A stretch of 56,485 nt of DNA from a virus: positions 1 through 56,485 of the IMG/VR virus record IMGVR_UViG_3300011440_000004. One strand, 5' to 3'. Of this stretch, positions 17,025-45,944 are shown one piece after another (the stretch's first letter is position 1; each line of letters starts with the position of its first letter). A program made the position numbers and the translations under genes. The notes beneath the pieces are model-generated. The model saw nothing but the letters and a program-made list of their open reading frames with translations, was not told where the DNA came from and made no database searches.

Positions 17025-17500
17025 AAGGGCGTGGCGTCGAACCGCTCGAACAGCTCGGCGGCCCCCTTGCGGCCACCGTCTTCGCGGGCGAGCTCGGCCT
17101 CGTGCGCCACCGCGGCGCGCGCGGCGTCGTCGCCGACCCATGCGGTCAGCTGGTCGAGGGTGAACTCGGTGCCCTTGTCGAACTCGAACGCGGCGACAGC
17201 ATCGGCGCGGGCGCGACGCTCGCGGTCGGCACGCTCGTCGTCGGTCTCGGTGTCGTCGGCTGCTGCGGCCGCGAACGCCTCGCCCGGGTCGGCGTCTTCG
17301 ACGCGCATCGCCCGGATCAGCTCGACGATGCGGGCGTCGGGTGCGGTCATCACGAGCTTGCGGTCGTCGTCGGAGACGTCGGACTCGTCGAACATGGCGA
17401 CGATGTCTTCGACCTCGCGGTCGTTGGCGCCGAGCAACCGCAGCCGGTCGAGGAACCCGGTCATTGGGTTGCGGATTTCAGGGGCAGAGCGGAATCCCAT
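17021..17500 (-). CDS. Acidic head-tail region protein, unknown function
   Basis: A 159-residue acidic, helical protein (MTGFLDRLRLLGANDREVEDIVAMF near the N-terminus; ADDTETDDERADRERRARAD in the middle). It lies between the modification cassette and the neck genes. The start at 17500 gives a TGATG overlap with the upstream gene; MTGFLDR at 17464 is the alternative. No family recognised. Confidence 0.55.
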   Translation of the reverse strand: MGFRSAPEIRNPMTGFLDRLRLLGANDREVEDIVAMFDESDVSDDDRKLVMTAPDARIVELIRAMRVEDADPGEAFAAAAADDTETDDERADRERRARADAVAAFEFDKGTEFTLDQLTAWVGDDAARAAVAHEAELAREDGGRKGAAELFERFDATPL

Positions 17501-18579
17501 CAGGTCGACCTTTCAAGTTGGACGATGAACTCGCCGGCTCGCCGGGAGGCGTTGCCGTCGAGATGAGCGTAGACGAACCCCGCGGCGGCCCGCCGCAAAC
17601 CTGCCGACGGGTCATCGTCGACGTAGGCGTCGAGGTCGATGGCACGCAGGGCGTCGGCGTCGTCGACCTGCCAGCCGGGGACGTGGCTCCAGAACCGCAG
17701 ACCATGTTCGACGTGGCGCCGATACCACGGTGCGTTGAGCGCCACGACCGGCCGGTCGAGGGCGGCCATCTCGTACATCAGCGATGTGTTGTCCGCGACG
17801 AGCACCGTGGCGTCGGCGAGGATGGCGTCCGCGTCGGCGACGACGTCGACGCCAGATCGAGCCCACACCGGCCCCAGGTGGCCCAGGAGACGAGGGTGGC
17901 CGTGGCCGACAACGTTCCACCCGGCCGCACGCCACGACGAACACAGGCCCCGCAGCGCCCATTCGTAGTGGCGCAGCGCCGATCCGGCCTCGGGGCACAA
18001 CGCGTTGGGCCAGTGGAACGTGACCGCGACCGATCTGTCGCCCCCAGCTCGGGCAGACGTGTCGCCGACCGGCAGGCGACACGTGTCGCTCGTCGACGAC
18101 GGTGACGCGTCGGATGTCACCACGGTGGACGCGTCGCGCACGACGTCGCCCGACGCGTCGTGTAGGACCTGGGCGAACCGGTCGAGCTTGGGGCATCCGA
18201 CCGCGACAGCCGCCACGCCCGGCCGGGCTCGACGCCACCGGTCGGCGACGGTCTCGGACGGGCAGACGTAGCCGACGACGCGCTCGGGATGGCGGGCGCC
18301 GCCACCCGAGTAGGCCTCGTGGTCGGCGCGGTCGACGTACACCTGGCCGGCGCCGTGCTCGACGTACACGAGCCGGCGGTGGTGAACGAGGCGGGCGACG
18401 TCTTGCCATGCGGCGACGACGGTGAGCCGGTCGGCGCGGTAGCGGTCTCGGGGGATGCGTTCACCCCAGCCGACGCCGTACGCCGAATAGAACTCGCCAC
18501 GGTCGGTCTCGGCGAGCGCGGCGTGGATCGGCGCGAGGTGCGCCGCGTAGTGCGGCATCGACGAGTAGAAGTCGATCAC
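17500..18579 (-). CDS. CDP-glycerol glycerophosphotransferase-like glycosyltransferase
   Basis: A 359-residue GT-B-like protein starting at GTG 18579 (GTGA overlap with the methyltransferase stop). The C-terminal half has VVGHGHPRLLGHLG, then ADATVLVADNTSLMYEMAAL and PVVALNAPWYRR, resembling the S-x-x-x-E donor site of CDP-glycerol glycerophosphotransferases and related enzymes. It could add glycerol-phosphate or sugar groups to virion protein, wall polymer or modified DNA; the acceptor cannot be read from sequence. It ends the modification cassette inside the head-tail gene block. Confidence 0.65.
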   Translation of the reverse strand: MIDFYSSMPHYAAHLAPIHAALAETDRGEFYSAYGVGWGERIPRDRYRADRLTVVAAWQDVARLVHHRRLVYVEHGAGQVYVDRADHEAYSGGGARHPERVVGYVCPSETVADRWRRARPGVAAVAVGCPKLDRFAQVLHDASGDVVRDASTVVTSDASPSSTSDTCRLPVGDTSARAGGDRSVAVTFHWPNALCPEAGSALRHYEWALRGLCSSWRAAGWNVVGHGHPRLLGHLGPVWARSGVDVVADADAILADATVLVADNTSLMYEMAALDRPVVALNAPWYRRHVEHGLRFWSHVPGWQVDDADALRAIDLDAYVDDDPSAGLRRAAAGFVYAHLDGNASRRAGEFIVQLERST

Positions 18580-20464: not shown

Positions 20465-20500
20465 GCCGACCATGGTACACAACCGGGGTTAGGTAGGCAA
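20453..20500 (-). promoter_or_regulatory. Leaderless promoter family, copy C
   Basis: Minus strand: -35 TTGCCT (20500-20495), 17-base spacer with AACCCCGGTT, -10 TACCAT (20477-20472), 7 bases, ATGGCAGATACC. The -35 is also the last codons of the upstream glycosyltransferase (ACC-TTG-CCT-ACC-TAA), so the promoter is embedded in a gene end. Confidence 0.8.
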
Positions 20501-21529
20501 GGTGGCGTCGTCGAGCGCGGACCACCACACGTCGGCGAGCGCGTCCCACGTGTTGGCCTGGCCCCACTCCCACGCCCGATCTTGCAGCGCGCCGAGCTCG
20601 GCGCGGTCGGTGCCGAGACGGTCGATGGCGGCGGCGATCGGCTCGGCTCGGACGCCGGCGGTCTCGACGACACCGCCGGGCATCTGGAGCTGGCCGAGCG
20701 GGGCGGCGTCGAACAGGTCGACGGGCCACCAACCGTTCGCCGTGATGGCGGGCATGGACGCGGCGACACCGACCGACATCGCTTCTTGGACCGGCAGGCA
20801 CAGACCGCCGTAGCGGCGCGGCATCATCAGCAGGTGGGCGCCGGCGAACATGTCGAACCGGTCGTCGACGCCACCGCAGTGCACCCGCAGGTTCACGTTG
20901 CCCGGCACCGGCCCCAGGTCGAGGGTGCGTTCCTGCGTGTAGACCCGAACCGTGACATCGATCGACACACGACGCAGCGCCCGCGCGAGTGCGTTGGTGC
21001 CGTTGCGGTCATGTTGGCAGCGATGCCCGAGGGTGTGAACGACGGTGAGTTCGCCGTCGTCGGCGGGCCGGTTCATCGGCGCCATCGCTTCGACCGGGAT
21101 CGGCACGACCGGCCCGGCGGGCAGATGGTCGAGACGCCACGGTGTGGGCCACCACCACCGCGTCGGTTGCGGCCAGCGCCGGTTCATCGCGTGGCGCCAA
21201 TACTCGGGCATGCCGTGCACCACGGTGGCGACGCCGGCGTCGCGGGCCCAGTCGGCGAGACGCCAGTCGTACAGGGTTTCGGCCGAGTAGACGACGTCGA
21301 GGCCGTCGAGCCACGCCCGGGCAGCGGTCTCGTCGAGGCGGCCGGTCGTCCAGATGTCGCACCACAGCCGGGTGGCGTCGGGGTAGCGGTCGAGATGGTT
21401 CGGCACCGCGGTGTTGCGTGGCTCGTAGTCGATGACCGCGACGCGGTCCCACGGCAACGCCTGCGACGCGGCCCACGTGATGTGGCCGAGACCGCGGTCC
21501 TCGGCGCGTGCGATCAGACCGGCGCGCAT
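20489..21529 (-). CDS. GT4-like glycosyltransferase
   Basis: A 346-residue GT-B-fold candidate. The N-terminus has MRAGLIARAEDRGLGHITW; the middle has TLGHRCQHDRNGTNALARAL, where the donor-binding domain begins; and MMPRRYGGLCLPVQEAMSVG matches the E-x7-E region that binds the nucleotide sugar in GT4 enzymes. It follows the GT-FkbM fusion and precedes a cytosine methyltransferase and a third transferase. The acceptor could be a virion protein or modified base. Its stop is overlapped by promoter C. Confidence 0.75.
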   Translation of the reverse strand: MRAGLIARAEDRGLGHITWAASQALPWDRVAVIDYEPRNTAVPNHLDRYPDATRLWCDIWTTGRLDETAARAWLDGLDVVYSAETLYDWRLADWARDAGVATVVHGMPEYWRHAMNRRWPQPTRWWWPTPWRLDHLPAGPVVPIPVEAMAPMNRPADDGELTVVHTLGHRCQHDRNGTNALARALRRVSIDVTVRVYTQERTLDLGPVPGNVNLRVHCGGVDDRFDMFAGAHLLMMPRRYGGLCLPVQEAMSVGVAASMPAITANGWWPVDLFDAAPLGQLQMPGGVVETAGVRAEPIAAAIDRLGTDRAELGALQDRAWEWGQANTWDALADVWWSALDDATLPT

Positions 21530-21756
21530 CAGCCGGCGACGCCTTCGCCGCACCAGTCGCCCTCTTGCATCTGCGGCCACACCTGCGTCACCCGTTCGTC
21601 GTCGACGGTGGCCACGAGCGACGGCGGGAACCGGTGACATTCGAGCACCGGTGCCTCGTCGTCGGTGCCGCGCCCGATGAACGCGGGCTCGGCGAACACG
21701 CAGTCGACGCACAACACCCGCACCGGCGGCCGGCGTGCCGGTCGGAGCTCAGCCAC
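21529..21756 (-). CDS. 75-residue Cys-containing protein
   Basis: GTG at 21756 overlaps the end of the GT-FkbM gene by 8 bases, and the stop overlaps the next ATG. VLCVDCVF, then LECHRFPPS and DWCGEG, suggest a small zinc-binding protein of a kind common in actinophages. Function unknown. Confidence 0.6.
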   Translation of the reverse strand: MAELRPARRPPVRVLCVDCVFAEPAFIGRGTDDEAPVLECHRFPPSLVATVDDERVTQVWPQMQEGDWCGEGVAG

Positions 21757-23479
21757 GGCGGCCCGCGAGGTGGGCGTCGAGGTGGTGGTGGCGCCAGTAG
21801 ATCAGACCGCCGGTCGATGGCCGACCGAAGATGGTGGGGATGCCGACCTCGGCGAGCTGCTCGACGACGGTGCCCATCCGCCATGAGCCGGGCATGTCGA
21901 CCATGTGGCGCATCTGGCGGCCGTGGAACTCCATGACGATCCGGTCGATCCGGTCGAGGTCGGATGGGAACGCGCCGGCGAGCAGCGGATATTCGCAGCC
22001 CTCGCAGTCGATCTTGAGCAGGGCGAGACGTCCACCGGGGCCGGCGGCGGCGTCGAGCGCCTGACGCAGCGTCACGGTCGGCACGTCGTAGCCGTCGCCC
22101 GAGTACTCGCACGACGGCCGGGTGCGGGTGCCACCTTCGTAGCCGGCGACGGCGCGTTCGACACGCAGCGTCTCACCCGCAGACCACACCGCGCAGCGAT
22201 GCACCTTGACGACGCGGCGTGCGTCGGAGTTGATCGAGATGTTGACGTCGAGGCGGTCGGCGATCGACGGTTCGGGCTCGTAGGCGTGGACGGTGTGTGC
22301 GCCGGCGGCGGCGGCCCATATAGCGAACGCTCCGATGTTGGCGCCGACGTCGATCACTGCGCCGTCGGCGACCTGGTCTCGTGTCAACCGGTACTGGTCG
22401 TCGCGCCACAACTCGTCGACGACTTCGCCGTCGGTGGTGCCGGGGCGCAGATCGAACCGGGCGGTGACCCGCGACTGGCGGTGCGTGGTGGTGGTGACGC
22501 CGGCGTGCCGCTGGTAGGTGCGCAAGGTGCGAGTCTGCCAGAGGCGTTCCATGACGTCGGCGAGACGATGCTCGTACAGGTGCCGGTCGATCACGTGGGC
22601 CTTCGCGGCGGTGCCGATGGCGCGGCCACGTTCGGGGTCGGCGAGCGCTGCCTCGATCAGGGTGTCGAGCGCGTCGAAGTCGCCGACCGGGTAGGTGTCG
22701 AGGTGGACGCCCGGCGTGTAGTGCTCGTCGAGGCCGATGACGTCGGGGTGGATCAGGTAGCCGCCACGGCCGAGGGTCTCGGGGATGCGGTCCGACCAGT
22801 AGTGGGTGGCGTCGCCGGCGAGACACGAGTCGCCGACCGCGACGGTCGCCGCGGCGTACAGATCGGTGAGGGCCTGCCCGCGCACCGGCGCCAGACGTGA
22901 CCGCGGATAGAACTCGACGAGCTCACCCCACCGGGCTCGCAGATGCTCGACGAGCTGCATGCGCAGCGGCCACTCTCGGGCGACGGTGTAGCGGTCCCAT
23001 GACCCGACGAACACGATGTGTTCGCCGTCGCGCGGGTTCGGGGTGCGGGCCGCTTCGGCGCCGGCGATCGCGGGCGGCATCCACCAGTGTTCGATGCCGA
23101 CCGACGACCACTCGGCCTGGTGGCCGCCGTCGGCGGTGCAGAGCACGTCGACGCCACGATGGAACTGCGACGTCGCGATGTCGGCCTCGCGGCGCAGGCC
23201 CCACCACCGGTCGAGGTGGTAGCCGACGACGGGCAGGTTCGCAGCCTTCGCGGCGTCGAGGGCGCGGCCGACGAGCGCACCGTTAGCCGGTCTCGACGCG
23301 GTCCACAGCACCATCGCCCACTCGGCGGGTGGCCGCGCGAGCCCGACCCAGGTGGCGCGGTCGGTCTCGTCGAGACGCACGACGGTGTGGCCGTTGACTT
23401 CGAGGGCGTCGGCGACGTGGCATTCGGTGAACCATGGGGCGTCGAAGTTCCCGACGTATGCAACTGTTAGCGGTGTCAC
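21749..23479 (-). CDS. Glycosyltransferase fused to FkbM-type methyltransferase
   Basis: A 576-residue two-domain protein. Residues about 1-330 are a GT-B-like glycosyltransferase (MTPLTVAYVGNFDAPWF; later WSDRIPETLGRGGYLIHPD and GVHLDTYPVGDFDALDTLI, the CgeB/YkvP-like donor site). Residues about 355-576 are an FkbM methyltransferase: VIDVGANIGAFAIWAAAAGA (SAM motif I), HAYEPEPSIADRL, then LALLKIDCEGCEYPLLAG. FkbM enzymes O-methylate sugars, so the fusion may add a sugar and cap it by methylation. Start is GTG 23479; the Shine-Dalgarno is weak. Confidence 0.8.
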   Translation of the reverse strand: MTPLTVAYVGNFDAPWFTECHVADALEVNGHTVVRLDETDRATWVGLARPPAEWAMVLWTASRPANGALVGRALDAAKAANLPVVGYHLDRWWGLRREADIATSQFHRGVDVLCTADGGHQAEWSSVGIEHWWMPPAIAGAEAARTPNPRDGEHIVFVGSWDRYTVAREWPLRMQLVEHLRARWGELVEFYPRSRLAPVRGQALTDLYAAATVAVGDSCLAGDATHYWSDRIPETLGRGGYLIHPDVIGLDEHYTPGVHLDTYPVGDFDALDTLIEAALADPERGRAIGTAAKAHVIDRHLYEHRLADVMERLWQTRTLRTYQRHAGVTTTTHRQSRVTARFDLRPGTTDGEVVDELWRDDQYRLTRDQVADGAVIDVGANIGAFAIWAAAAGAHTVHAYEPEPSIADRLDVNISINSDARRVVKVHRCAVWSAGETLRVERAVAGYEGGTRTRPSCEYSGDGYDVPTVTLRQALDAAAGPGGRLALLKIDCEGCEYPLLAGAFPSDLDRIDRIVMEFHGRQMRHMVDMPGSWRMGTVVEQLAEVGIPTIFGRPSTGGLIYWRHHHLDAHLAGRRG

Positions 23480-29506: not shown

Positions 29507-30802
29507 TCAGGGCTCGATCGTGACGTTGTCCCAGTGCCAGGTGTACCGACAGCCGGTCAGCGAGCCGACCTGCCGACACGCTTCGCCATCCTTGTCGGGC
29601 GTGTAGGAGTGCTGCTCCAGGATGACGCGGGCGTCGGTCGGGAAGTGGCCGGGGAACGTCTGCGAGAACGTGCCGTTGACGCCTTGGTCGATCGTGACCG
29701 TGACCGTGTCGTTGGCGTTCGCGGTGATGCAGTGCTGCCGGCGGATCGCACGCGACTCCTGGCCTTGGACGTCTCGGTCCCACTGATACCCGGAGTTCGT
29801 GAACCGGGGCCCGTTGGCGAACACGTTGAGACCCCAGTACTGGCCGTGGACCATCACACCCCATGTGGTGGCGTCGTGCTGCTTGGTCTTGTCGTCGACA
29901 CCGACGAACTCGGGGTTGACGTGGGTCAGGTCACCGTCGGCGACCTTCGCCGCGGGGACGACGACCACCTCGGTCCACTGGCGGCCACCCTGCTCGGTGA
30001 CGTTCTGATCCCAGCAGACGCGGCCGATGGTGGGGAACGTCTGGCGGGGTGACATCGACAGTGTCGAGTAGCCGTCGACGTCGCCCATCGACGTCATCAT
30101 GTGGGCGTTGCCGACGCCGCCGTCGGTGCCGCACCGGTAGAAGTGCTGCGACCGGTCGCCGTGGGCGTCGATGGTTCGGAAGGTGTCGGCGGTGCCGCAT
30201 GCGACGTCGTGGTCGGCGCGCCACGTGTTCGTGCCGACCGGGCTGGGCGGGGTGTCGGCGTCGGCGCGGTGGTGGACGTCGAGGTCCCAGCGGGCCCGCC
30301 AGTTCTCGCCGTCGGTGTAGGTCTCGACGAACGAACCACCACCGGGCACCGTCGTCGTCGTTGACGTGGTCGAGGTGGTGGTCGTCGACGTCGTGCTCGT
30401 GGTCGACGTCGTTGAGGTGGTCGAGCTCGTCGACGTGGACGTAGCGGGGACCGTCGTGGTGGTGGCCGCAGTCGTGGACGTCGACGAGCTCGTGGTGGTG
30501 GTCGACGTGGGCGGGCCGGGCAGCACGTGCAGGATGCGGCCGGCGAGCAGCGTCGACGAGATGGTGGTGCCGTTCTGGCGTGCGAGTTCGTTGCCGGTCA
30601 GGTTGTACCGGTTCGCTATCCCGATCCACGAGTCGTTCGCGACGACGCGGTAGTGGATCACGGCCGGCACCTCGTCGGCGAGCGCCGACCGGGCCGGCAC
30701 CGATCGAGACACGACCGGCGGCACGAACACGGCGGCGCCGATACCGGCACCGAACAGCAGGCCGATGGCGAGGGCCCCCTTGCGGCGGGACATCGGGGTC
30801 AT
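29507..30802 (-). CDS. Secreted LysM protein with Ser/Thr-rich stalk and lectin-like domain
   Basis: A 431-residue protein. MTPMSRRKGALAIGLLFGAG plus the following hydrophobic run is a signal peptide or anchor; residues about 47-92 are a LysM peptidoglycan-binding domain (HYRVVANDSWIGIANRYNL .. AGRILHVLPG); residues about 97-150 are almost only Ser and Thr; the C-terminal 275 residues are a beta sandwich resembling concanavalin-like lectin/glucanase folds (CWDQNVTEQGGRQWTEVVVV .. YTWHWDNVTIEP). Either the virion carries it to bind the wall, or it is exported to the infected cell surface. No glycosidase catalytic motif is evident. Confidence 0.7.
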   Translation of the reverse strand: MTPMSRRKGALAIGLLFGAGIGAAVFVPPVVSRSVPARSALADEVPAVIHYRVVANDSWIGIANRYNLTGNELARQNGTTISSTLLAGRILHVLPGPPTSTTTTSSSTSTTAATTTTVPATSTSTSSTTSTTSTTSTTSTTTTSTTSTTTTVPGGGSFVETYTDGENWRARWDLDVHHRADADTPPSPVGTNTWRADHDVACGTADTFRTIDAHGDRSQHFYRCGTDGGVGNAHMMTSMGDVDGYSTLSMSPRQTFPTIGRVCWDQNVTEQGGRQWTEVVVVPAAKVADGDLTHVNPEFVGVDDKTKQHDATTWGVMVHGQYWGLNVFANGPRFTNSGYQWDRDVQGQESRAIRRQHCITANANDTVTVTIDQGVNGTFSQTFPGHFPTDARVILEQHSYTPDKDGEACRQVGSLTGCRYTWHWDNVTIEP

Positions 30803-32513: not shown

Positions 32514-34280
32514 TCAGCTGCCCGTCGTCGCGATGTCGATTTCGGTGCAGCACGAGTACGTGCCGTTCGGGACGATGTCGAACGTGATCCGCAACGACTC
32601 GCGGCCGTGGTGGTGGGCGTTCTCGAACGTCTCGGCGAAGAACTCGGCGTCGTTGGTGTCGTTCAGGACCGAGTCGCGGTAGATGCCCTGGTTGAACTCG
32701 CCGCCGTCGAGGAACAGCCACTCGCCGACCGGATGCAGGTAGGTGATGGCGGTGTCGGGCCACGGGTTGAGGGTGCCGTCGATCTGCGCCGAGAACCCCT
32801 GGCCGGTCTCGCCGTCGAGGTGCCATGCCGGCGTGATGCCACGAGCAGCGAACCACCGTGCGATCGCGGCGTCGGCGAGCGCGAGGGTTTCGTCCATCGT
32901 GCCGACCGGGATGCCACGAGCGACCGACGTGCGGATGTTGTTCTGCATCCACCCCGGGGCGATGAACGCGAACCGCATGTTGGGGTCGCGGTGGCGGTAC
33001 ACGAACCCGGCGGTGGCGCGGTCGAGACCGGCGAGCACGTCGCGTTCGGTCGACAACAGCTCGCCGACCGTCACCGCCTCGGACCCGGCGGCGATCGTGG
33101 TCAGCAGCTTGTTCTCGGCGACGCGGGCCTGCTCGACGAGGAGCAGCCGCTGCCATGCCTCGGCCTGCTCCCGGAAGTAGCGCAGACCGAAGTTGCCGAA
33201 CACGAGCCGGCCGACGACGGCGTCGACAGTGGTCGTCTCCGGGGTCGGACAGGTGGCCCGCATCTTCGCCTTGACGGCGGGGTCGGGCGACGCGCCACCG
33301 GGGAGTGCGGCGAGGTCGTTGGCGTGGGTCCACACCGTGATGCCGGCGGCGGCGGCGCCGAGGATCGGAGGCGGCAACGTCGACACACCGCCGCGGGCCT
33401 CGGCACCGAACCGGGCCAGGGCGTCACGCACCGGCCGGTCGGTCGAGCCGACGACGGGCAGCGAGTAGTCGACATTGATCGGGGCGCAGATGCCACCCGC
33501 GGCGGCGAGCGCCCGGGTGTTCGTCGCCGCGGCGACCTTGCGGGTGTTCTCGGCCGAGTCGCCGGTGAGGCGACGCTCGTTCGGGAACATCGCCAACGCA
33601 CGCATCGACTGCACCGGGATCTTCGGGTTGCCGCCGATCCACTCCTGCGACGCGATGTAGGCCTCTTCCCAGGTGCGAATCGCCATCTCGGCGTCGAGTT
33701 CCTGGCCGGGCTGAGCGCCGGCGTAGGCGCCGGCGGCGACGAGCGGTGCGCGCTGCACCTGCGCCGCGGGGACGTGCGGCTGCGACGCCGGGGGCCGGCG
33801 TGCGTTGACGTTCGAGATGCGCGGCTGCGGCGTGGCTGCTGCGGCGACGGGCTCGGCGACGGGCGGGGTCTCGGCCGCGTCGTCGGCAGGCGGGGTCTCG
33901 GCCGGCGCAGCATCAGGGTCGTCGACCGGGGCGGCATCGGGGTCGTCCGGGTCCGGGTTCTCGGGGTCGGCGTTGTCGGGGTCGAGCGCGGCGATGGCCT
34001 CGGCGAGCTCGGCGCGCTGCGTCTCTCGGTTGGCGTCGTCGGCGTCGAGCGCGGCGATGCGCTCCACGAGCGCCGTCGACGCGGCAGACACCACGCCGAG
34101 CGCGGCGAGGGTCTCGTCGGTGGCGTCTGCGGCGAGCAGTTCGGCGCCGGCGGCACGCAACGCGTCGCGGCACCCTTCGACGTCGTCGCGGCTCAGGGCG
34201 GCGACGAGACCGAGCAGCTCGGTGCGCTGCTCGTCGGTGATGGCTGCGCCCAAGGCGAGCAGTTCGAGAATGCGGTCCAT
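32514..34280 (-). CDS. Major capsid protein with N-terminal scaffold-like domain
   Basis: A 588-residue HK97-fold capsid candidate. Residues 1-100 are helical and acidic (LLALGAAITDEQRTELLGLV .. AALDADDANRETQRAELAEA), residues about 100-180 a disordered Asp/Pro/Ala-rich stretch, together a likely delta/scaffold region cut during maturation. The shell domain follows (GGICAPINVDYSLPVVGSTD; IRTSVARGIPVGTMDETLAL; AEFFAETFENAHHHGRESLR). The prohead protease is immediately upstream. ATG 34280 has AGGAGACACCCAC before it, a variant of the start-associated cassette. Confidence 0.85.
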   Translation of the reverse strand: MDRILELLALGAAITDEQRTELLGLVAALSRDDVEGCRDALRAAGAELLAADATDETLAALGVVSAASTALVERIAALDADDANRETQRAELAEAIAALDPDNADPENPDPDDPDAAPVDDPDAAPAETPPADDAAETPPVAEPVAAAATPQPRISNVNARRPPASQPHVPAAQVQRAPLVAAGAYAGAQPGQELDAEMAIRTWEEAYIASQEWIGGNPKIPVQSMRALAMFPNERRLTGDSAENTRKVAAATNTRALAAAGGICAPINVDYSLPVVGSTDRPVRDALARFGAEARGGVSTLPPPILGAAAAGITVWTHANDLAALPGGASPDPAVKAKMRATCPTPETTTVDAVVGRLVFGNFGLRYFREQAEAWQRLLLVEQARVAENKLLTTIAAGSEAVTVGELLSTERDVLAGLDRATAGFVYRHRDPNMRFAFIAPGWMQNNIRTSVARGIPVGTMDETLALADAAIARWFAARGITPAWHLDGETGQGFSAQIDGTLNPWPDTAITYLHPVGEWLFLDGGEFNQGIYRDSVLNDTNDAEFFAETFENAHHHGRESLRITFDIVPNGTYSCCTEIDIATTGS

Positions 34281-34442: not shown

Positions 34443-36065
34443 TCAGACGGCGGCCTCGGTCTCGCCGAGCATGATGCGGGCGGCGAGGTGGTCGCGTTCG
34501 GCCGGGATCAGGTGCCGGGTGCGCCGGTCGATCGCAGACACCATCGCGAGCACGCGGTCGATCCGGTCGTCGCTGCGACCGTTGCGCGCCGACAGCCGCT
34601 TGCCGGCGGCGGGCCGGTGGTCCTGGCCGCACGCCGAGCAGTGCACCATCCCGGACGCGACGAGCGCTTCGACACGCGCCGGGGCCGGGCGCACGATGCC
34701 GATGCCACGCATCGCGATGACACGGCCGTCGCGCACGGTGATGCGCGGCAACGGGTCGGCGAGTTGGATGCCACCGGCGGCGACGAGACGCTGGCGGGTG
34801 ATCGGGAACCCGGGAAGGTTGCACGATTGCAGGCCGAACATGTCGAGCTCGTAGTCGCCCCACTCGCGCCAATCCCCCGACACCCCGGACGCGCGCAGCA
34901 CGTTGACGGCGTGCGGTGTCACGTCGGCGCGCACGACACCGGAGAACCATCCGCCGTTGCGGCCGTTCGACGCACGCACCGACGCCCACCCGAGCGTGGT
35001 GTTGGCGTAGTGGTCTCGGGCCTGCTGCGCGGTGATGCCGACGAGCGGCGCATGGTCGAGGCCGTACACGAGGGTGCCGACCGGCGGCCCACCCGGCGAC
35101 GGGTTGGCGTGCAGATTGAAGTTCGCGTAGTCGGTCGGCGACGACGGCGCGGTGCGGCACTCGTTCGGGTAGCCGATGTGGCAGGCGCCCTCGGGGTAGA
35201 TGTGGCCGTACACGTGGCGCCAGCCTGCGTCGTCGCCGTCTTCGATCGTGAGCGGCACAGCGATGCCACCGGTCGACAACTGCGGCACGTTGCGCGGGTC
35301 GTCGTCGGGTGGTTCGGTCATCGTCGAGTATTCGAGCCGCGCCGGGCGCGGTGTGACGGTGATCGTCCCGGACGCCGCGACGGGTTCTGCCGATGCGTCG
35401 TCGTCAGCTGCGTCAGACGGCTCGGTGGTCGACGCGGCGGCGGGGTTGCCGAGCTCGATCCATGCGGTCTCGAACCCGGGGAACGGTTCGGCGGTCATGC
35501 CGGCGATGTCGTATGTGAGGAACCACGTCTCGGCCTCGATGCACCACCCGTCCTCGTCGACCTCGGTGCAGCGGTCCTCCCATGTGACCGCGCCCGGGTC
35601 GACGGACACACCGAACCGGCCCTGCGCCACGAGGACGTCGCGCAGTGCGCGGCCGGCGTCGGAGTCGTGGAACCATCCGGCCGAGAACGGGGTGCCGTTG
35701 ACGACGGTGTTCTCGTCGGCCCAGCCGGCGAGCACGGCGCCGATGTGCTGCCAGTCGGAGACGTTGTGGAACATCAGCGGCAGCGGGCCATCTCGGAACG
35801 TCCAGACGCACTCGGAGAAGTCGCGGCCGTCGCCGGTCGGTTCCTGCAACGCGACACCGTTCGGACCGGAGACCCAACGCTCGGCGAGTGCACCCTTTGG
35901 CGCGGTCGCGAGACGTGCGGCGGGTGGTGCCATCGCGGCCATCGTGGCGAGCTGGCCCCCGACGAAGACGAGGCCTTGCGTGTAGTCCGGGAACGTCGAC
36001 AGCACCGTGCCGGCGGCGTCGACGACTTCCCACTGGCCGGACGAGTTCTGGCGGATGGTGAACAT
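34443..36065 (-). CDS. Prohead protease-like capsid maturation protein
   Basis: A 540-residue protein upstream of the capsid gene. Residues about 95-155 hold LMFHNVSDWQHIGAVLAGW and GRFGVSVDPGAVTWEDR; the His in FHN and the Ser in GVSVD occupy the places of the S78-type prohead protease dyad. A disordered acidic segment follows (about 205-235), then a second domain with YGHIYPEGACHIGYPNECR, and a C-terminal CSACGQDH zinc-like site. The protein is longer than ordinary prohead proteases and may combine protease with a minor capsid function. Confidence 0.6.
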   Translation of the reverse strand: MFTIRQNSSGQWEVVDAAGTVLSTFPDYTQGLVFVGGQLATMAAMAPPAARLATAPKGALAERWVSGPNGVALQEPTGDGRDFSECVWTFRDGPLPLMFHNVSDWQHIGAVLAGWADENTVVNGTPFSAGWFHDSDAGRALRDVLVAQGRFGVSVDPGAVTWEDRCTEVDEDGWCIEAETWFLTYDIAGMTAEPFPGFETAWIELGNPAAASTTEPSDAADDDASAEPVAASGTITVTPRPARLEYSTMTEPPDDDPRNVPQLSTGGIAVPLTIEDGDDAGWRHVYGHIYPEGACHIGYPNECRTAPSSPTDYANFNLHANPSPGGPPVGTLVYGLDHAPLVGITAQQARDHYANTTLGWASVRASNGRNGGWFSGVVRADVTPHAVNVLRASGVSGDWREWGDYELDMFGLQSCNLPGFPITRQRLVAAGGIQLADPLPRITVRDGRVIAMRGIGIVRPAPARVEALVASGMVHCSACGQDHRPAAGKRLSARNGRSDDRIDRVLAMVSAIDRRTRHLIPAERDHLAARIMLGETEAAV

Positions 36066-36099
36066 GGCGACCGAGCGTAGTGCTATGCGCCCGGACGCG

Positions 36100-36133
36100 A
36101 CAGCGCCACCCGAACGGGTCCGGGTGGCGCTGT
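36100..36133 (-). terminator. Strong hairpin after the LPXTG gene
   Basis: ACAGCGCCACCCG (36100-36112) pairs perfectly over 13 bp with CGGGTGGCGCTGT (36121-36133), loop of 8 bases. It lies between the LPXTG gene and the protease gene and would stop read-through into the capsid genes. Confidence 0.8.
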
Positions 36134-36184
36134 CTTCGATGCCGCAGTCGGTTGTCGTCCCTCGCGGCCTCGGGAAGTCGGGGG

Positions 36185-36886
36185 TCAGGCTACACGCCGG
36201 CGCCGGGCGATGCGCAAGATGGCGACGCCACCGAGCACGAGCGCGACGGCGATGCCGGCGTTGCGTCTGGCGTCGGAGCGGGCCCCGGTCGCGGGCAGCG
36301 TGCCCGCCACGGTGGTTTCGACGATCGCCGCTGTGGTGGTGGGCTCGTCGCAGCAGCCGACCGGTTCACACCCGCCGGTCTCATTCGTGACGCCGGTCGT
36401 ACAGATCGTGGTCGTCGGATCGGCGCCCACGGTCGTCGTGGTGGCGGCGGGCGCCGTGGTGGTGGTCGCAGGGACCGTTGTGGCCGTGGTGGTCGTGGCG
36501 GGCACCGTGGTGGTCGTGGTCTGGACCGGGCAGACCGGCGGGCGGGCGACCGTCGCCGAGTTCGACCCGGTCGCCTGATTCGACCAGGCGGCCGACACGG
36601 TCTCGGTGGCCGACGCCTGCGTGCCGGGGTAGGTGACCGTGCGGGTGAACGCCAGGTCGTCGCCCTGCGATCCGGCCGGCGCATACCCGGCCGGCGACGT
36701 GATGCGCCAGGTGAGGTCTCGATCGACGTCGGCGCGGGCGGTCCACGTGACCGACCACGTGTCGACGCGGCACTGCGTGGCGCCGGCGACGACCGGGTGA
36801 TGCGCGAGCGCCGGGGCGGCGGGGATCAGGCCGACGCCCGCCGCGATGGCGGCGCAAGCGATGACGATGCGTGTGCGGTGTCTCAT
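36185..36886 (-). CDS. LPXTG cell-wall-anchored surface protein
   Basis: A 233-residue protein with every element of a sortase substrate: signal peptide (MRHRTRIVIACAAIAAGVGL .. APALA), an exported beta domain (about 31-118, two Cys), a Thr-rich stalk (TTTTTVPATTTT, about 122-160), a Cys-rich patch (CTTGVTNETGGCEPVGCC), LPATG at 197-201, a hydrophobic segment (AGIAVALVLGGVAILRI) and a basic tail (ARRRRVA). Host sortase would attach it to peptidoglycan of the infected cell. ATG 36886 has AAGGG nine bases upstream. It is bounded downstream by a strong terminator. Exclusion of competing phages or altered cell surface is possible; function unproven. Confidence 0.85.
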   Translation of the reverse strand: MRHRTRIVIACAAIAAGVGLIPAAPALAHHPVVAGATQCRVDTWSVTWTARADVDRDLTWRITSPAGYAPAGSQGDDLAFTRTVTYPGTQASATETVSAAWSNQATGSNSATVARPPVCPVQTTTTTVPATTTTATTVPATTTTAPAATTTTVGADPTTTICTTGVTNETGGCEPVGCCDEPTTTAAIVETTVAGTLPATGARSDARRNAGIAVALVLGGVAILRIARRRRVA

Positions 36887-36938
36887 TGATGGTGTCCCTT
36901 CGGGTTGTCCGACCGCGGTGGTGCGGTCGGAGACTAGA

Positions 36939-38502: not shown

Positions 38503-38667
38503 TTATCCACCCGGTGTGGACAAGTCGCCGGCGTCGTCCGGTCTCGGCAGGGTGTCGTCTGCGGCGAGCTCGTCGAGAACCGAGTCGATCGAGACCGGCG
38601 TCACGAGGTCGCCGTCGACGATGAGGTCGTCGTACGGTCGGTCGCCGAACCGGTTGTCGTCGGTCAT
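38503..38667 (-). CDS. 54-residue acidic protein, unknown function
   Basis: ATG 38667 overlaps the MuF-like gene stop (ATGA). The product MTDDNRFGDRPYDDLIVDGD continues as an acidic chain (SIDSVLDELAADDTL) and is probably partly disordered. It ends just before promoter E. It could be a small capsid-assembly helper by position only. Confidence 0.55.
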   Translation of the reverse strand: MTDDNRFGDRPYDDLIVDGDLVTPVSIDSVLDELAADDTLPRPDDAGDLSTPGG

Positions 38668-40223
38668 TGCATCAGCCCCCTCGCCCGCAGCACGTTCTCC
38701 ACGGCCGGGCCGATGGTATCGGTGAACACGTCGTCGGGCCACTGGAAGTACAGATGCGTGTCGAGCATGGCGTCAAGAGACTTGGCGGCGTCGCCTCCGA
38801 GCTGGCGGGTCGCCCACTGCGAATAGGCGCGGGCCCACACCTCTCGGACGTCGGACAGGTACGCCCGATACCCGGGCTGGCCGGCGAACGACCGCAGCGT
38901 CTGCTTGAAGTGGTCGTCGTTGGCGGCTGTGAGGAACTGTTCGAACGCGGCCCGCACCTCGGGGGTCTCCTTGTGCAACGTCGCCGACACGAACCGGCCG
39001 CCAGCGGGCGTGTCTGCGTCGACGACCCAGTCCGTGCGGTGGCCGTACTCGTGGACGAACGACATGATGCCGGTGCCGTCGCCGCGGTCGTTGACACGAA
39101 TCTCGGGGTCGGGTCTCGGTGCGTTCATCGCGGCCATGCGCCGCGCCGACCAATCGGAGACCGACTCGCCCTTGAGCCGGCGAGGCTTGGAGCGCGCCGG
39201 CACCGGCGAGAAGTGACCGCCCTTGTTCTGCGCCTTGCCACCGGCGATGACCACGGTCTCGGCGAACCCGTCGTCGGCGAGACCGTGGAGCTGGTCGAGA
39301 CCAGTGATGATCGGCGCGAACACCCGCTCGGCCTTCGCGGTGGCGTAGCGCAGCGCGTTGCGCCCGGAGCGTGTCGTCAGCGGCGTCGGCTGGAACAGGT
39401 CGGCCCAATCGGCGGGTGGTGGCGGTCCCGTCGACAGACCCGCCGAGCGTGCCTGCGCCGGCGTGAGGATGATCGGCTCGAAGTCACACCGACAGTGGGC
39501 GTGGTCGCCCGGGATGTAGAACGCGAACGGCGGCCACCCGGACCCGTTCGTCAACACCGGCGAGTCGAACCGCTCGAACACCTGACCGTCGAGACGCAGG
39601 TGCGGCATGAACGGCGCCTTGCGCCGCGCCGGCCCGTACACCCACCGGTACGCCTCGGTGGTGCCGCCGTGGTCTCGGATCGCACGCGTGACATCGGGGC
39701 CCGTCGCGACGCCGCCGACGCCACGGTTGTCCGACGTGACGACGGTGTACGCGAACCCTGACGACGTGATGTCGGCGGTGCCCCCGGCGACGCCGAGCAC
39801 GTGACGCACGAACCCGGTCGGGACGAGCTCGTCTATCGAGTCGGGGTCGAGACCGACCGGGTCGAACAGCCGATCCGACGCGAGCCCGCCGATCGCAGAC
39901 CGGAACCATGCGACCGAGTCGTCGACGTGACGCAGCTGCGTCGCTTTCATGGCGTCGGGGTAGCCGGTGCGCCACTCGCCGATCAGACCACCCACGACCG
40001 ATTGGGCGTCGGCGGCGGCGTCGAGAGCCCACACCCGGTAGCGGGCGACGAGGTCGTCGAACGCGCCGTCGAGCAGCTCGGCGTCGGACAGGTCCCCCGC
40101 GGCGATCAGAGACGGTCCGAGGGTGCGGGCGGCGAACATCGGGGCGACGTTGCGCAGCGTGTCGCGGAACACGCCGGCGCGTCCCTTGAGCCGGTTGCCG
40201 GCACGTTCGAGCGCTCGGCGCAT
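38664..40223 (-). CDS. MuF-like head protein with C-terminal zincin-like domain
   Basis: A 519-residue protein downstream of portal. Residues about 200-245 carry the MuF/SPP1 gp7 signature region (AFYIPGDHAHCRCDFEPIIL). The C-terminal 150 residues differ: GIMSFVHEYGHRTDWVVDAD contains HExxH, with a downstream EVWARAYSQWA that could give the third ligand, so a metallopeptidase or toxin-type domain appears attached and would be packaged with the head. The 92 bases before ATG 40223 stay open and coding-like back to CTG 40319, which overlaps the portal stop; the true start may be that CTG, adding 32 residues. Confidence 0.75.
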   Translation of the reverse strand: MRRALERAGNRLKGRAGVFRDTLRNVAPMFAARTLGPSLIAAGDLSDAELLDGAFDDLVARYRVWALDAAADAQSVVGGLIGEWRTGYPDAMKATQLRHVDDSVAWFRSAIGGLASDRLFDPVGLDPDSIDELVPTGFVRHVLGVAGGTADITSSGFAYTVVTSDNRGVGGVATGPDVTRAIRDHGGTTEAYRWVYGPARRKAPFMPHLRLDGQVFERFDSPVLTNGSGWPPFAFYIPGDHAHCRCDFEPIILTPAQARSAGLSTGPPPPADWADLFQPTPLTTRSGRNALRYATAKAERVFAPIITGLDQLHGLADDGFAETVVIAGGKAQNKGGHFSPVPARSKPRRLKGESVSDWSARRMAAMNAPRPDPEIRVNDRGDGTGIMSFVHEYGHRTDWVVDADTPAGGRFVSATLHKETPEVRAAFEQFLTAANDDHFKQTLRSFAGQPGYRAYLSDVREVWARAYSQWATRQLGGDAAKSLDAMLDTHLYFQWPDDVFTDTIGPAVENVLRARGLMQ

Positions 40224-40315: not shown

Positions 40316-41977
40316 TCAGGCCGGGGCGGGCGAAGGGGGGTCGGCGCCACCCTCGGCAGCGGCGGCGAGCGCGATCGGCGGCGTCTGCTGCGTGAGCTGG
40401 AACGCCAGCGCGGCGAGGACCGAGACCGGCAGCCCGGTGGCGCGCAAGATGCGCGACACCTGCGACAACTCGTCGTCATCGGCCGGCGCGGCGTTGCCCT
40501 GGCCGGCCTGGAGGTCGGGCAGCACGAGCTTCGGGAACGCCACCTGCAGCAGTGCGCCGGTGAGTTCGGCGGTGAGGATGCCGCGGGTCATCGCGACCAA
40601 TCCCATCTGCTCCTCGAACGTCGGCGCCATCTCGTCGGGAATGCCCTTGAGCTTGCGGTAGCCGGGCAGGTTGATGGCGAAGTTGCCGAGCGCCTCGTCG
40701 GCGGCCTCCGACGGGTCGGGGTCGTCCATCAGCGCCGACGCGTCGTACCACACGAAGATGCGACGCACGAGGTCGGCGTCGTAGTTCGAGTCGCGCAGGT
40801 TGGCTCGCAGGAACCACTCCGAGAGGATGTCGCACTGCAGCAGCACGCGGGACTCGACGAAGTCGGTGAACGTGTCCTCGTTGATCTGCGCGGCGTTGGC
40901 GAACGTGGTTTGCATGTGGCCGAGCAGCACCTCGACGGGCAGGTTGATGCCGTGCGCGAGGCGGGTGACGCGGGCGGTGATCTTCTTGTCGATGTCTTCG
41001 GTGCCGCCACGACCGAAGTCGATCTTGCGTAGCACGTCGGGGTGGAGCAGCTCGGGGCGGCCTTGGATCAGCCACGGCACCACCGACAGCGGGTCGGTCG
41101 GGTCGTCGATCGGTCGGGTGAGGGCGTTGGTCATGTCGTCGACGAACGGTGTTTCCTTCTGCTCGTCGCCCGACTGCGGGGTCGGCCCGGTCGGTGTCGC
41201 CTTGCCGAACGTGAGACCGTCCGGGAGCGTGATCGCGCCGGCGTTGTGACGTGACAGCGTCTCGGCATACATCTGCCCGGTCAACGCCTGCAGCAGCCGG
41301 CACTCCGAGATGGTGCCACGCACGTTCGAGTCGGCGAGCTTCGACCATCGAGGGTGGCGCTGGTAGCAGCGGATGATCGTGTCATCTTCGGTCAGGTCGC
41401 GGCCGGCGTCGCCGGGCTCGTCGTGGATCACCCACTTCTGACCCTTGTTCTCGACCTCGTCGAGGGAGCGAATCTCCCACTGCTCGGGCACCTCCGGTTG
41501 GTCGACCTCGCCGGGTAGCGCGGCGATCTTCGCTGCGCGCTTGGCCCAGCCGACGAGGTAGCAGTCGCCGGCGAAGTCGAGGTTGACCGCCATCTCGCGT
41601 TGCAGCTCCGGTTGACCACCGAGGTCGGATCGCAGACGTGCGAGCTCGGCGACCGCCGACGCCTTGAGCGCGTCCGGGAAGTCGACCGTAGCCGGGTGCG
41701 GTTTGCCGTCGACGTCGACCGAGTCGATGGGGATGGCGTTGTGTTCGTCGTCGGCGACCGCGACGTAGAGCCGAACCTTCGACAACTGGTTGCCGACCCA
41801 TATACCGGCGAACTTGAGCTCGGGCACGGTGTCGTAGAAGTCCCAGCACTCGTGTTGCCACTCTTCGGGTTTGCGGCCGGCCTTCTTGACGCCGGCGCCC
41901 TTCGACGGCAGACGAATCGCCGAGCCGACCAGGGCTCGTGGATCGGTGGGCTTGCGTCGTTCGCGTCGGAGAGCCAT
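40316..41977 (-). CDS. Portal protein
   Basis: A 553-residue protein in the place of portal, between terminase and MuF. It has KAGRKPEEWQHECWDFYDTV near the start, TISECRLLQALTGQMYAETL and GRGGTEDIDKKITARVTRL in the stem-crown region, then LPVEVLLGHMQTTFANAAQI, which is typical of actinophage portals. It forms the dodecameric ring through which DNA is packaged. Pro/Ala-rich C-terminus. ATG 41977 is preceded by an 18-base gap. Confidence 0.85.
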   Translation of the reverse strand: MALRRERRKPTDPRALVGSAIRLPSKGAGVKKAGRKPEEWQHECWDFYDTVPELKFAGIWVGNQLSKVRLYVAVADDEHNAIPIDSVDVDGKPHPATVDFPDALKASAVAELARLRSDLGGQPELQREMAVNLDFAGDCYLVGWAKRAAKIAALPGEVDQPEVPEQWEIRSLDEVENKGQKWVIHDEPGDAGRDLTEDDTIIRCYQRHPRWSKLADSNVRGTISECRLLQALTGQMYAETLSRHNAGAITLPDGLTFGKATPTGPTPQSGDEQKETPFVDDMTNALTRPIDDPTDPLSVVPWLIQGRPELLHPDVLRKIDFGRGGTEDIDKKITARVTRLAHGINLPVEVLLGHMQTTFANAAQINEDTFTDFVESRVLLQCDILSEWFLRANLRDSNYDADLVRRIFVWYDASALMDDPDPSEAADEALGNFAINLPGYRKLKGIPDEMAPTFEEQMGLVAMTRGILTAELTGALLQVAFPKLVLPDLQAGQGNAAPADDDELSQVSRILRATGLPVSVLAALAFQLTQQTPPIALAAAAEGGADPPSPAPA

Positions 41978-43622: not shown

Positions 43623-45332
43623 TCATCCGGTGCGGGGTCCGAGACCGCGCATGCGTCGACCGATGTGACCTGGCTGCGGCAGCGACACCCGCGCCGTCGC
43701 CGGCGGCATCTCGACGTGGCCGGGGCCGGCGCCGAGGATGCGGGTCACGCCTTGCGACCATGCGTCGACTTGGTCGTCGGGGGTGCCGGGGTCGGGGAAC
43801 GCGGCGCACTCGTTGACGAGACCGAGCGCCCACCCGTTCGCGGCGGACAGCGGCAGGAAGATGTCGCCCGCTTCGAGATGCGGCGCCGCGGTGCGAGCCC
43901 TCGTGACCTTGTCGGTGGTGACGGTGTTGGGCACGATCCCGGAGATGCCACGCCTGAGCAGTTCCTCGACGCGGATGCGTTCGTCTCGGTTCATGCCGAG
44001 CGCGCCGGCGACGTCTTCGGATATATCGGCGCGGGCGATCCCGCGGCGCAACGCCTCCATGACCTCGGGGCCGTTGCCGGCGTTCTCGATCACGTGGCGG
44101 CGGATGTGTGGATGGCGCACCTGCATCAGCGCCACCGCGGCGCGGGTCATCGTCAAGTCCCACTGGCCGCGCAGCTGGTCGACGCACCACGCCGTCGACG
44201 CGTACCGGTGCCATGCCTGGCCGACGACGTAGTCGCCGCGGGTGTTGTCCTTCATCTTCATGTCCCACGACGTCAACGAGTCGTCTGGCGTCGCGGGCGG
44301 GATGTCACCCCACTGCCACCACGCCCGCTTGAGTTCGCCGCCTTCCTCCGGGGCGGGGTCCTGCTGCTCCATCGCCGACGCCAGATAGGACCCGAGGACG
44401 CGGGCGCGGGACTGGACGGCTTCGAGGTCGAACACCTCGGGTACGAGTGGTTCGCCGAGGGCGCGGCCGAGCAAGTCGTCGACCTGGTCGGCGAGCGCCG
44501 GCAGCCGGTACAGGGTCCACGTCTCGCCGTCGCCTGTCTCGTCGGCGGTGGTGATCCGGCCCATCAGGTCGTCGAGATGCCATCGGGCCATCAGCAGTTG
44601 GATGAACGCGTCGTCGTGGTCGAGACGCAGACGCAGCACCGACCGGTAGAAGTTCCACACCCGGTCTCGGTGCGTCTTGGAGTGGGCCTCCATCCAGTTC
44701 TTGAACGGGTCGTCGATGACGACACCACCACCCGCACCGATGAGGCCGGCGCCGGCGCCGAACCCGATGATGGACCCGCCGATGCCGGCGGCGAGGATGC
44801 CACCCCCGGCGGTGGTGACCCACCGGTCGTGACGTTTGCGGTCCGGGCGCAGACGGACCCGGAGATGTTCGGGGTTCTCGGTGAGCATGTCGCGCACGCC
44901 GTGGGCGTTCTCGGCGGCGAGCTCGTAGGCGTAGCTGCACAGGATGAATGTGGCGGCGGGGTCTCGGTCGAGCGCCCACGCGGTGCCACCCTGCGACGTG
45001 ACCCTCGACTTGCCGACACGAGAGGGGGCGAGGATGGCCTGGCGTGGTTCGAGACCGTCGGCGGCACGTCGGAACGCTGAGCCGAGGAACCGGGCGAGAC
45101 GATGCGGCCGGTAGCGGTCGTCGAGCTTGGCGAGCATCGTGGATGGGTCCTGGCGCCAGTGGGCGTTGACGGCGCCGAGGGCGTACTCGCAGACCGCACG
45201 CCTCGCCGGTGGCGACCCGGACATGTACGCGGCGAGCTTGGGTCTCGGCATGGCGAGCAGCTTGTGGCCGAGCTCGATGAGCGCGGCGAGGGGGTCTCGG
45301 GCGTGCGGGATGTCGACGACCCGAGCAGGCAT
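43623..45332 (-). CDS. terL: Terminase large subunit
   Basis: A 569-residue packaging motor. The N-terminal ATPase has a Walker A variant APSRVGKSRV (about residues 101-110) and Walker B GGVVIDDPFKNW; coupling motif region QLLMARWHLDDLMGRI. The C-terminal RNase H-type nuclease has the acidic residues in SWDMKMKDN, then VIENAGNGPEV and TPDDQVDAWSQGV. It translocates DNA into the prohead through the portal and cuts it. The gene follows the small subunit by nine bases, a common late-operon order. Confidence 0.92.
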   Translation of the reverse strand: MPARVVDIPHARDPLAALIELGHKLLAMPRPKLAAYMSGSPPARRAVCEYALGAVNAHWRQDPSTMLAKLDDRYRPHRLARFLGSAFRRAADGLEPRQAILAPSRVGKSRVTSQGGTAWALDRDPAATFILCSYAYELAAENAHGVRDMLTENPEHLRVRLRPDRKRHDRWVTTAGGGILAAGIGGSIIGFGAGAGLIGAGGGVVIDDPFKNWMEAHSKTHRDRVWNFYRSVLRLRLDHDDAFIQLLMARWHLDDLMGRITTADETGDGETWTLYRLPALADQVDDLLGRALGEPLVPEVFDLEAVQSRARVLGSYLASAMEQQDPAPEEGGELKRAWWQWGDIPPATPDDSLTSWDMKMKDNTRGDYVVGQAWHRYASTAWCVDQLRGQWDLTMTRAAVALMQVRHPHIRRHVIENAGNGPEVMEALRRGIARADISEDVAGALGMNRDERIRVEELLRRGISGIVPNTVTTDKVTRARTAAPHLEAGDIFLPLSAANGWALGLVNECAAFPDPGTPDDQVDAWSQGVTRILGAGPGHVEMPPATARVSLPQPGHIGRRMRGLGPRTG

Positions 45333-45341
45333 CGCTCGGGC

Positions 45342-45944
45342 TCAGTCGGCGACTTCGGACAGGAACCGCTCGACGTCCGCCATGGTCTCGGTGATCGACT
45401 GCTCGGTGAGCGACGTGTCGCCGGGGTCTGGCATGCCGGTGGCGGCGCCGGCGTCGTGTTGCAGCTGGTAGCGCTCGGGGAACCGGCGGGTCAGTTTCCA
45501 GGTGATCGCGGCGGCGGATGGCACGCCGGTCTCGCGTCGCACGGTGCGTTCGATCAGGACCTCTTCGCCGTTGGTCGGGTTGTGGATGTACTTCTCGGTG
45601 ACGATTTCGCGGGCGATGCCGGCCTCCAGCCGCGACAGCGACACCAGGGCTTGCATCTCGTAGGTCGCCTCGGCCTCGTCTACTGCGTCCGAGAATGCGA
45701 GACACGCCCGCTGGTGGGCGGTGAGGCGTTCGAGGGTTCGGCCGGCGGCGAGGGCCTGTTGTGCGTGGCCGGCGACTTCGAGCCAGCCGTACAGGGTGCC
45801 TTTGGCGATGCCGGCGGATTTGGCGGCTCGTTCGACGAATGCGCCGTGGCGGATGAGTTCGACGATGCGGGCCTGCACGGTGGTGGTCTGGCCGTTGGGG
45901 AGTCGGAGCTGTGCGGCGATCTTCGAGGGACGTCCTGCGGGCAT
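45342..45944 (-). CDS. Terminase small subunit-like DNA-binding protein
   Basis: A 200-residue protein: MPAGRPSKIAAQLRLPNGQT, then a helix-turn-helix (FVERAAKSAGIAKGTLYGWL) as in small terminases, a central helical hairpin (SDAVDEAEATYEMQALVSLSRL) and ITWKLTRRFPERYQ, a phrase seen in many TerS proteins. It should recognise the packaging site. ATG 45944 has only GGAG two bases upstream; a -10-like TATCAT lies seven bases upstream, so it may be leaderless. Confidence 0.8.
   Translation of the reverse strand: MPAGRPSKIAAQLRLPNGQTTTVQARIVELIRHGAFVERAAKSAGIAKGTLYGWLEVAGHAQQALAAGRTLERLTAHQRACLAFSDAVDEAEATYEMQALVSLSRLEAGIAREIVTEKYIHNPTNGEEVLIERTVRRETGVPSAAAITWKLTRRFPERYQLQHDAGAATGMPDPGDTSLTEQSITETMADVERFLSEVAD

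Follow-up and report, generated by a model that had tools for sequence, protein, structure and literature searches.

A putative sortase-anchored surface protein of actinobacterial type encoded among the head genes of a phage

Gene order and anatomy of the locus

The window analysed here is a virus record of 56,485 bp, linear and perhaps incomplete, in which all of the modelled genes (85/85) lie on the minus strand. Its structural genes follow the order terminases, portal, MuF-like protein, small ORFs, g45, protease-like protein and major capsid protein. The first-pass annotation had described g45 as embedded in the head operon, and the gene does indeed sit between the MuF-like and the protease-like/major-capsid genes. 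The features of the region, in the direction of transcription, are:

45342-45944, minus strand: terminase small subunit, structural operon
43623-45332, minus strand: terminase large subunit (phrog_38)
40316-41977, minus strand: portal protein (phrog_776)
38664-40223, minus strand: MuF-like protein, upstream neighbour of g45 (weak PF04233; C-terminal HEYGH motif)
36908-36931, minus strand: hairpin 5' of g45, perfect 9-bp stem, 6-nt loop, no T-run
36895-36901, minus strand: Shine-Dalgarno-like GAAGGGA, read from the sequence, 8 nt 5' of the g45 ATG
36185-36886, minus strand: g45, LPXTG surface-protein gene, 233 aa, ATG start (translation, gene model, match to a profile of cellular proteins only)
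36803-36886, minus strand: predicted signal peptide of g45, residues 1-28, ALA then HHP (sequence and conservation)
36533-36802, minus strand: exported domain of g45, residues 29-118, with conserved H29, P31, C39, W48 and W101 (alignment and family searches)
36299-36520, minus strand: Thr-rich stalk of g45, residues 123-196, with a short Cys-rich insert (sequence)
36284-36298, minus strand: LPATG sortase motif of g45, residues 197-201 (sequence)
36188-36259, minus strand: hydrophobic segment (residues 210-227) and RRRRVA tail (residues 228-233) of g45 (sequence)
36099-36134, minus strand: hairpin 3' of g45, perfect 14-bp stem, no T-run
34443-36065, minus strand: protease-like/virion gene, downstream neighbour of g45 (phrog_21470, 859, 18402)
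32514-34280, minus strand: major capsid protein (phrog_777)

The coordinates first given for g45 are correct; they came without a strand, and the gene lies on the minus strand (GC3 0.90 in the gene model), the plus strand of the same interval holding an unrelated antisense frame. Read on the minus strand, 36185-36886 encodes 233 residues that begin with MRHRTRIVIACAAIAAGVGLIPAAPALA, continue after the predicted cleavage point with HHP, and close with LPATG, ARSDARRN, AGIAVALVLGGVAILRIA and RRRRVA. All of the elements originally listed for this one gene, namely signal peptide, exported domain, Thr-rich stalk, LPATG, hydrophobic segment and RRRR, can thus be seen in its translation. The signal peptide has a charged N-terminus, a hydrophobic core and an ALA/HHP junction that reads as a signal peptidase I site; in an 8-member family alignment that includes g45, A26, A28 and H29 are invariant. 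Threonine makes up 42% of residues 123-199. Structure prediction had been proposed for residues 31-118, and AlphaFold, run on the window sequence alone, gave pLDDT values of 48 and 49, which are too poor for use, so that no usable model of the fold was obtained.

Relatives of the capsid protein, at ~35-40% identity, occur in Gordonia, Arthrobacter and Microbacterium phages. The closest head-gene relatives that share the portal-MuF-protease-capsid order (the L014 group and L008) have no g45-like gene between MuF and protease: their interval contains only a small ORF, as against seven small predicted ORFs plus g45 in the window. These amount to two independent comparisons, as L010, L011, L013 and L072 share the match figures of L014. 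The L008 contig starts within the MuF gene. A moron is an extra gene that close relatives lack at the corresponding position, and this is so for g45 with respect to L014 and L008. No second copy of g45 was found in other viruses by a single-protein scan, by profile scans seeded with g45 or a cellular member, or by tblastn of named phages (E<=1), where the viral pattern scans required a near-exact AxAH(H/Y)P that more distant versions could escape. Codon usage in g45 is ordinary for the genome (rank 8/30), and the gene is thus settled in the phage genome. The C-termini of the MuF-like proteins of this group (window, L014, L008 and L003) vary, with an HExxH-type motif in the window and in L014 and a different C-terminus in L008; Gordonia phage Sixama has an annotated ADP-ribosyltransferase 5' of its capsid gene.

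Perfect stems of at least 9 bp number 12 in the window; three of these are intergenic, and two of the three flank g45. Five codon-order shuffles of the window gave 3 to 9 such stems in all. The third intergenic hairpin (2703-2737, 14-bp stem) lies beside a replication-initiation-like gene. The hairpin at 36099-36134 forms 16 pairs when folded, at -41.3 kcal/mol (z -4.1). It had been annotated as the gene's own 13-bp terminator; a hairpin is present after g45, but its stem is 14 bp, no T-run goes with it, and the terminator scan makes no call at 36099-36134, so termination here is unproven. On the other side of the gene, the ~20 nt from the upstream hairpin to the ATG leave too little room for a promoter, and a search for sigma-70-type promoters gave none for g45. 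Because neither hairpin has a T-run and such a promoter was not found, we describe g45 as a moron-like unit and go no further.

Cellular relatives and the sorting signal

A profile built from seven cellular proteins, with g45 excluded, was run on 11,462 ORFs of at least 50 aa, taken from the window together with 88 loci of phages or prophages; the sole ORF above inclusion was g45 (E 4.4e-17), the next ORF being at 0.9. Because the cellular-only profile picks out g45 alone, we take it, on this sequence similarity, to be a true member of a real surface-protein family rather than the bearer of a chance motif. In the other direction, residues 1-123 of g45 were searched against 395 Acidimicrobiia genomes, of the class to which G001, the source of the Acidimicrobiia locus L088, belongs. 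Matches at E<=0.01 came from 20 of them (best 4.5e-14, 40% identity); several weak matches with internal stops among the 20 are probably chance. The better matches start AxA/HHP, and most of those whose frame has its end inside the locus are Thr-rich and finish in LPFTG, LAHTG or LPRTG followed by a membrane segment and a basic tail. A profile that includes g45 matched 18/296 Acidimicrobiia genomes and 9/246 genomes of the class of G002, which contains Pseudonocardia, a contrast biased by the mostly Acidimicrobiia make-up of that profile.

We define these unnamed Acidimicrobiia sequences here as the AHHP family (L092, L093, L096-L098, L101, L102 and L139-L160). Its members resemble g45 in the AxA/H(H/Y)P start, one conserved Cys and two conserved Trp, the Thr-rich stalk, L(P/A)xTG, membrane segment and basic tail; they differ in lying in cellular genomes, while g45 lies in a phage structural operon, and even the nearest is at ~40% identity. 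Of the members, 31 were inspected, and in 21 of them the frame is closed within the locus; these end in a sorting signal in 16 cases, exactly in xTG and a stop in three, and in neither in two. A mature N-terminal His is found in 27 of 32 sequences including g45 (25 by pattern, with L147 and L157 added by reading). The cellular L151, L154 and L159 have FTG or LTG as their very last residues before a TGA stop; no membrane segment is evident just 3' in any frame, and the three resemble the product of an already-cut sorting signal.

A copper domain like that of YcnI (PF07987) or CopC (PF04234) was considered in view of the conserved His at the mature N-terminus, as both are likewise exported actinobacterial domains whose mature form starts with His. 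This candidate was dropped, since profile comparison with the AHHP family gave no homology (probability 0.8% over 7 columns for YcnI and 21.7% over 15 for CopC). A PDB sequence search with the family profile returned no match at E<=1, and at the thresholds used neither Pfam nor NCBIfam contains the surface-domain family. As judged from these searches, the AHHP family appears to be undescribed, actinobacterial and mostly from Acidimicrobiia.

The combination of LPxTG, hydrophobic segment and basic tail arose in 1 of 100,000 shuffles of the g45 protein. A slightly looser pattern was matched by g45 alone among 8,667 frames (stop-to-stop, at least 60 aa) of the window and 89 loci, with g45 counted twice, as L001 is a piece of the window. 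The LPXTG profile search that had been suggested for this gene came out mixed: residues 191-230 match PF00746 (Gram_pos_anchor) in the order and spacing of its motifs, but the score of 13.9 bits stays below the gathering cut-off of 20. Nor did g45 reach any NCBIfam cut-off or match any PHROG. The same is seen in its cellular relatives, as none of six full-length host sequences matches PF00746 at E<=1 and none of the six reaches an NCBIfam cut-off. The curated models hence miss the AHHP group as a whole, and the weak PF00746 score of g45 therefore does not count against it. We do not claim g45 as a member of PF00746; homology to the cellular family identifies it better than the LPXTG motif does.

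Likely host class and a second exported-looking gene

A tree of 30 rows places g45 beside L143 and L156, both from Acidimicrobiia, with support of 97/89 for the three and 97/68 for the pair, on long branches. The genome that L156 comes from (G159) also carries relatives of the C-terminal domain of a second gene of the window, g40:

29507-30802, minus strand: g40, exported-looking protein with a hydrophobic N-terminus, LysM, Thr/Ser stalk and C-terminal domain

The LysM match of g40 (PF01476) is above the cut-off, and its C-terminal domain, which is common to secreted Acidimicrobiia proteins, has matches in 2 of 198 Acidimicrobiia genomes at 35-41% identity, occurring three times in G159. In the PDB, g40 weakly matches the RcGTA head spike base (E 0.0032). 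A homologue with 57% identity lies 5' of a portal-like gene in the viral contig L209; the 13.7 kb examined of this 52.8-kb contig hold no AHHP family member and no LPxTG frame, and show two loose non-LPxTG pattern matches, on the antisense strand only.

A relative of the phage capsid is present on a 1.5-Mb contig of an Acidimicrobiia metagenome-assembled genome (MAG; L088). The g45 tree, the g40 C-terminal domain and this capsid relative, all of them indirect pointers, agree on the Acidimicrobiia as the likely hosts of the phage. The capsid and tape-measure-like relatives in L088 lie within a large bacterial contig, as a prophage or a domesticated remnant.

Sortases were found in 89 of 100 Acidimicrobiia genomes and in all nine of the AHHP-family-bearing genomes checked (9/9), and there is no sortase gene in the 56,485-bp record. 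The first-pass annotation had proposed that the phage places an LPXTG protein on the wall through the sortase of a Gram-positive host. The cellular homology, the lack of a sortase in the record and the near-universal sortases of the host class support this as a prediction, and the g45 tree together with g40 narrows the sortase-bearing host further, to Acidimicrobiia.

Proposed role and competing explanations

We suggest that g45 is a moron-like accessory gene of host origin within the structural operon, encoding a sortase-anchored protein and drawn from an actinobacterial, mostly Acidimicrobiia, family of wall proteins, and give this reading a probability of roughly 0.72. From the sequence we infer expression, export, anchoring and role as follows. 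The protein would be made during infection, probably alongside the late genes, and exported by the Sec system; signal peptidase would cleave after ALA, so that the mature protein starts with HHP. The hydrophobic segment and the RRRR tail would then retain it in the membrane until host sortase cleaves between the T and G of LPATG and couples it to the wall, where the Thr-rich stalk would display the ~90-residue domain outside the cell. Export, cleavage, membrane retention, joining by sortase and display are established behaviour of LPXTG proteins.

As to what such a protein might do, the first-pass annotation had named superinfection exclusion, biofilm change and protection of progeny as possibilities. 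We tentatively prefer, at clearly less than even odds, a host-like coat: on infected cells and the debris left by lysis it would mask the wall receptor of the phage, or compete for it, and so spare sister phage and progeny. This preference is based on the analogy with Llp of phage T5, a phage-encoded exported lipoprotein that prevents adsorption to infected cells and debris (PMC9586334). The analogy is one of function and no homology is claimed, since Llp is a lipoprotein of a Gram-negative envelope that acts on FhuA. It is further weakened by timing, Llp being among the early-expressed exclusion proteins (PMC9586334) and g45 among late genes. We also speculate, more doubtfully, that the phage exploits host sortase within a lytic cycle, with a captured wall-protein family in the late operon recoating infected cells and debris to which progeny then would not adsorb. 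If this is true, the recoating g45 and the exported-looking g40, with its LysM and host-type domain, would together equip one line of actinobacterial phages with an extracellular kit of two proteins.

An adhesive role like that of SasX ranks next after shielding. SasX and SesI are LPXTG proteins of staphylococcal phiSPbeta-like prophages, and they share with g45 a phage-borne gene, a signal peptide and an LPXTG motif, a likeness of kind only (PMC7285666). They differ in being carried on a large prophage, with sasX in the 3' end region, while g45 is found among the head genes of a tailed phage of actinobacterial type and is a member of an actinobacterial family of host type. The corresponding explanation, which we consider rather unlikely, is that the phage is temperate and g45 a lysogenic-conversion adhesin that alters how the lysogen aggregates, forms biofilm or attaches, a role of the kind put forward for SasX/SesI. 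The same kind of protein is documented on a prophage (PMC7285666), hairpins on both sides suit a moron unit, and the host relatives of g45 are ordinary surface proteins. Against this, g45 is in the structural operon rather than in a lysogeny region, and no integrase or repressor family was seen among the scanned gene products (25 of 33 PHROGs families listed; four very short genes left out), which leans away from lysogeny for a linear and perhaps incomplete record.

That g45 is a captured host gene carried along with no present benefit for the phage is less likely again. The gene is missing from the closest relatives and was found in one phage only, as might be expected of such a passenger; yet every functional element of it is intact, its codon usage is ordinary for the genome, and it has hairpins on both sides. 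We believe it to be improbable in a still higher degree that g45 decorates the particle, with a coincidental C-terminal motif. Its place between head genes would suit a virion component, as would the nearby g40, which adjoins the head genes and has the spike-base match given above, but g45 shares a signal peptide and a complete sorting signal with cellular wall proteins, and the rarity of the sorting pattern among shuffles and the lack of a PHROG match also argue against a virion component. Finally, a misjoin of host DNA to the phage contig, which the cellular relatives of g45 might suggest, is hardly credible, as one gene alone is involved and its strand and codon usage match the phage genes on both sides.

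We thus return to the reading of g45 as a host-derived wall protein. To our knowledge, the phage-borne LPXTG proteins on record all come from prophages of pathogenic Firmicutes, where they are discussed as virulence factors. Phage-borne LPXTG proteins as such are already known; what is new is the structural-operon setting, the host-family origin and the undescribed domain. In the open-licence PMC literature, judged by title, we found no report of a phage of Acidimicrobiia, or of environmental actinobacteria, that has a sortase-anchored protein. The present phage, whose hosts are likely Acidimicrobiia, carries an LPXTG gene drawn from a family of wall proteins of these likely hosts, which gives a host-class assignment for the virus and makes the use of sortase by phage testable outside pathogens.

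A tail-gene cluster on the minus strand of the window (17500-18579, 20489-21529 and 21749-23479) has matches to a glycosyltransferase, an FkbM methyltransferase and a CDP-glycerol glycerophosphotransferase, and is shared with L014. This cluster could modify the virion or Thr-rich stalk proteins.
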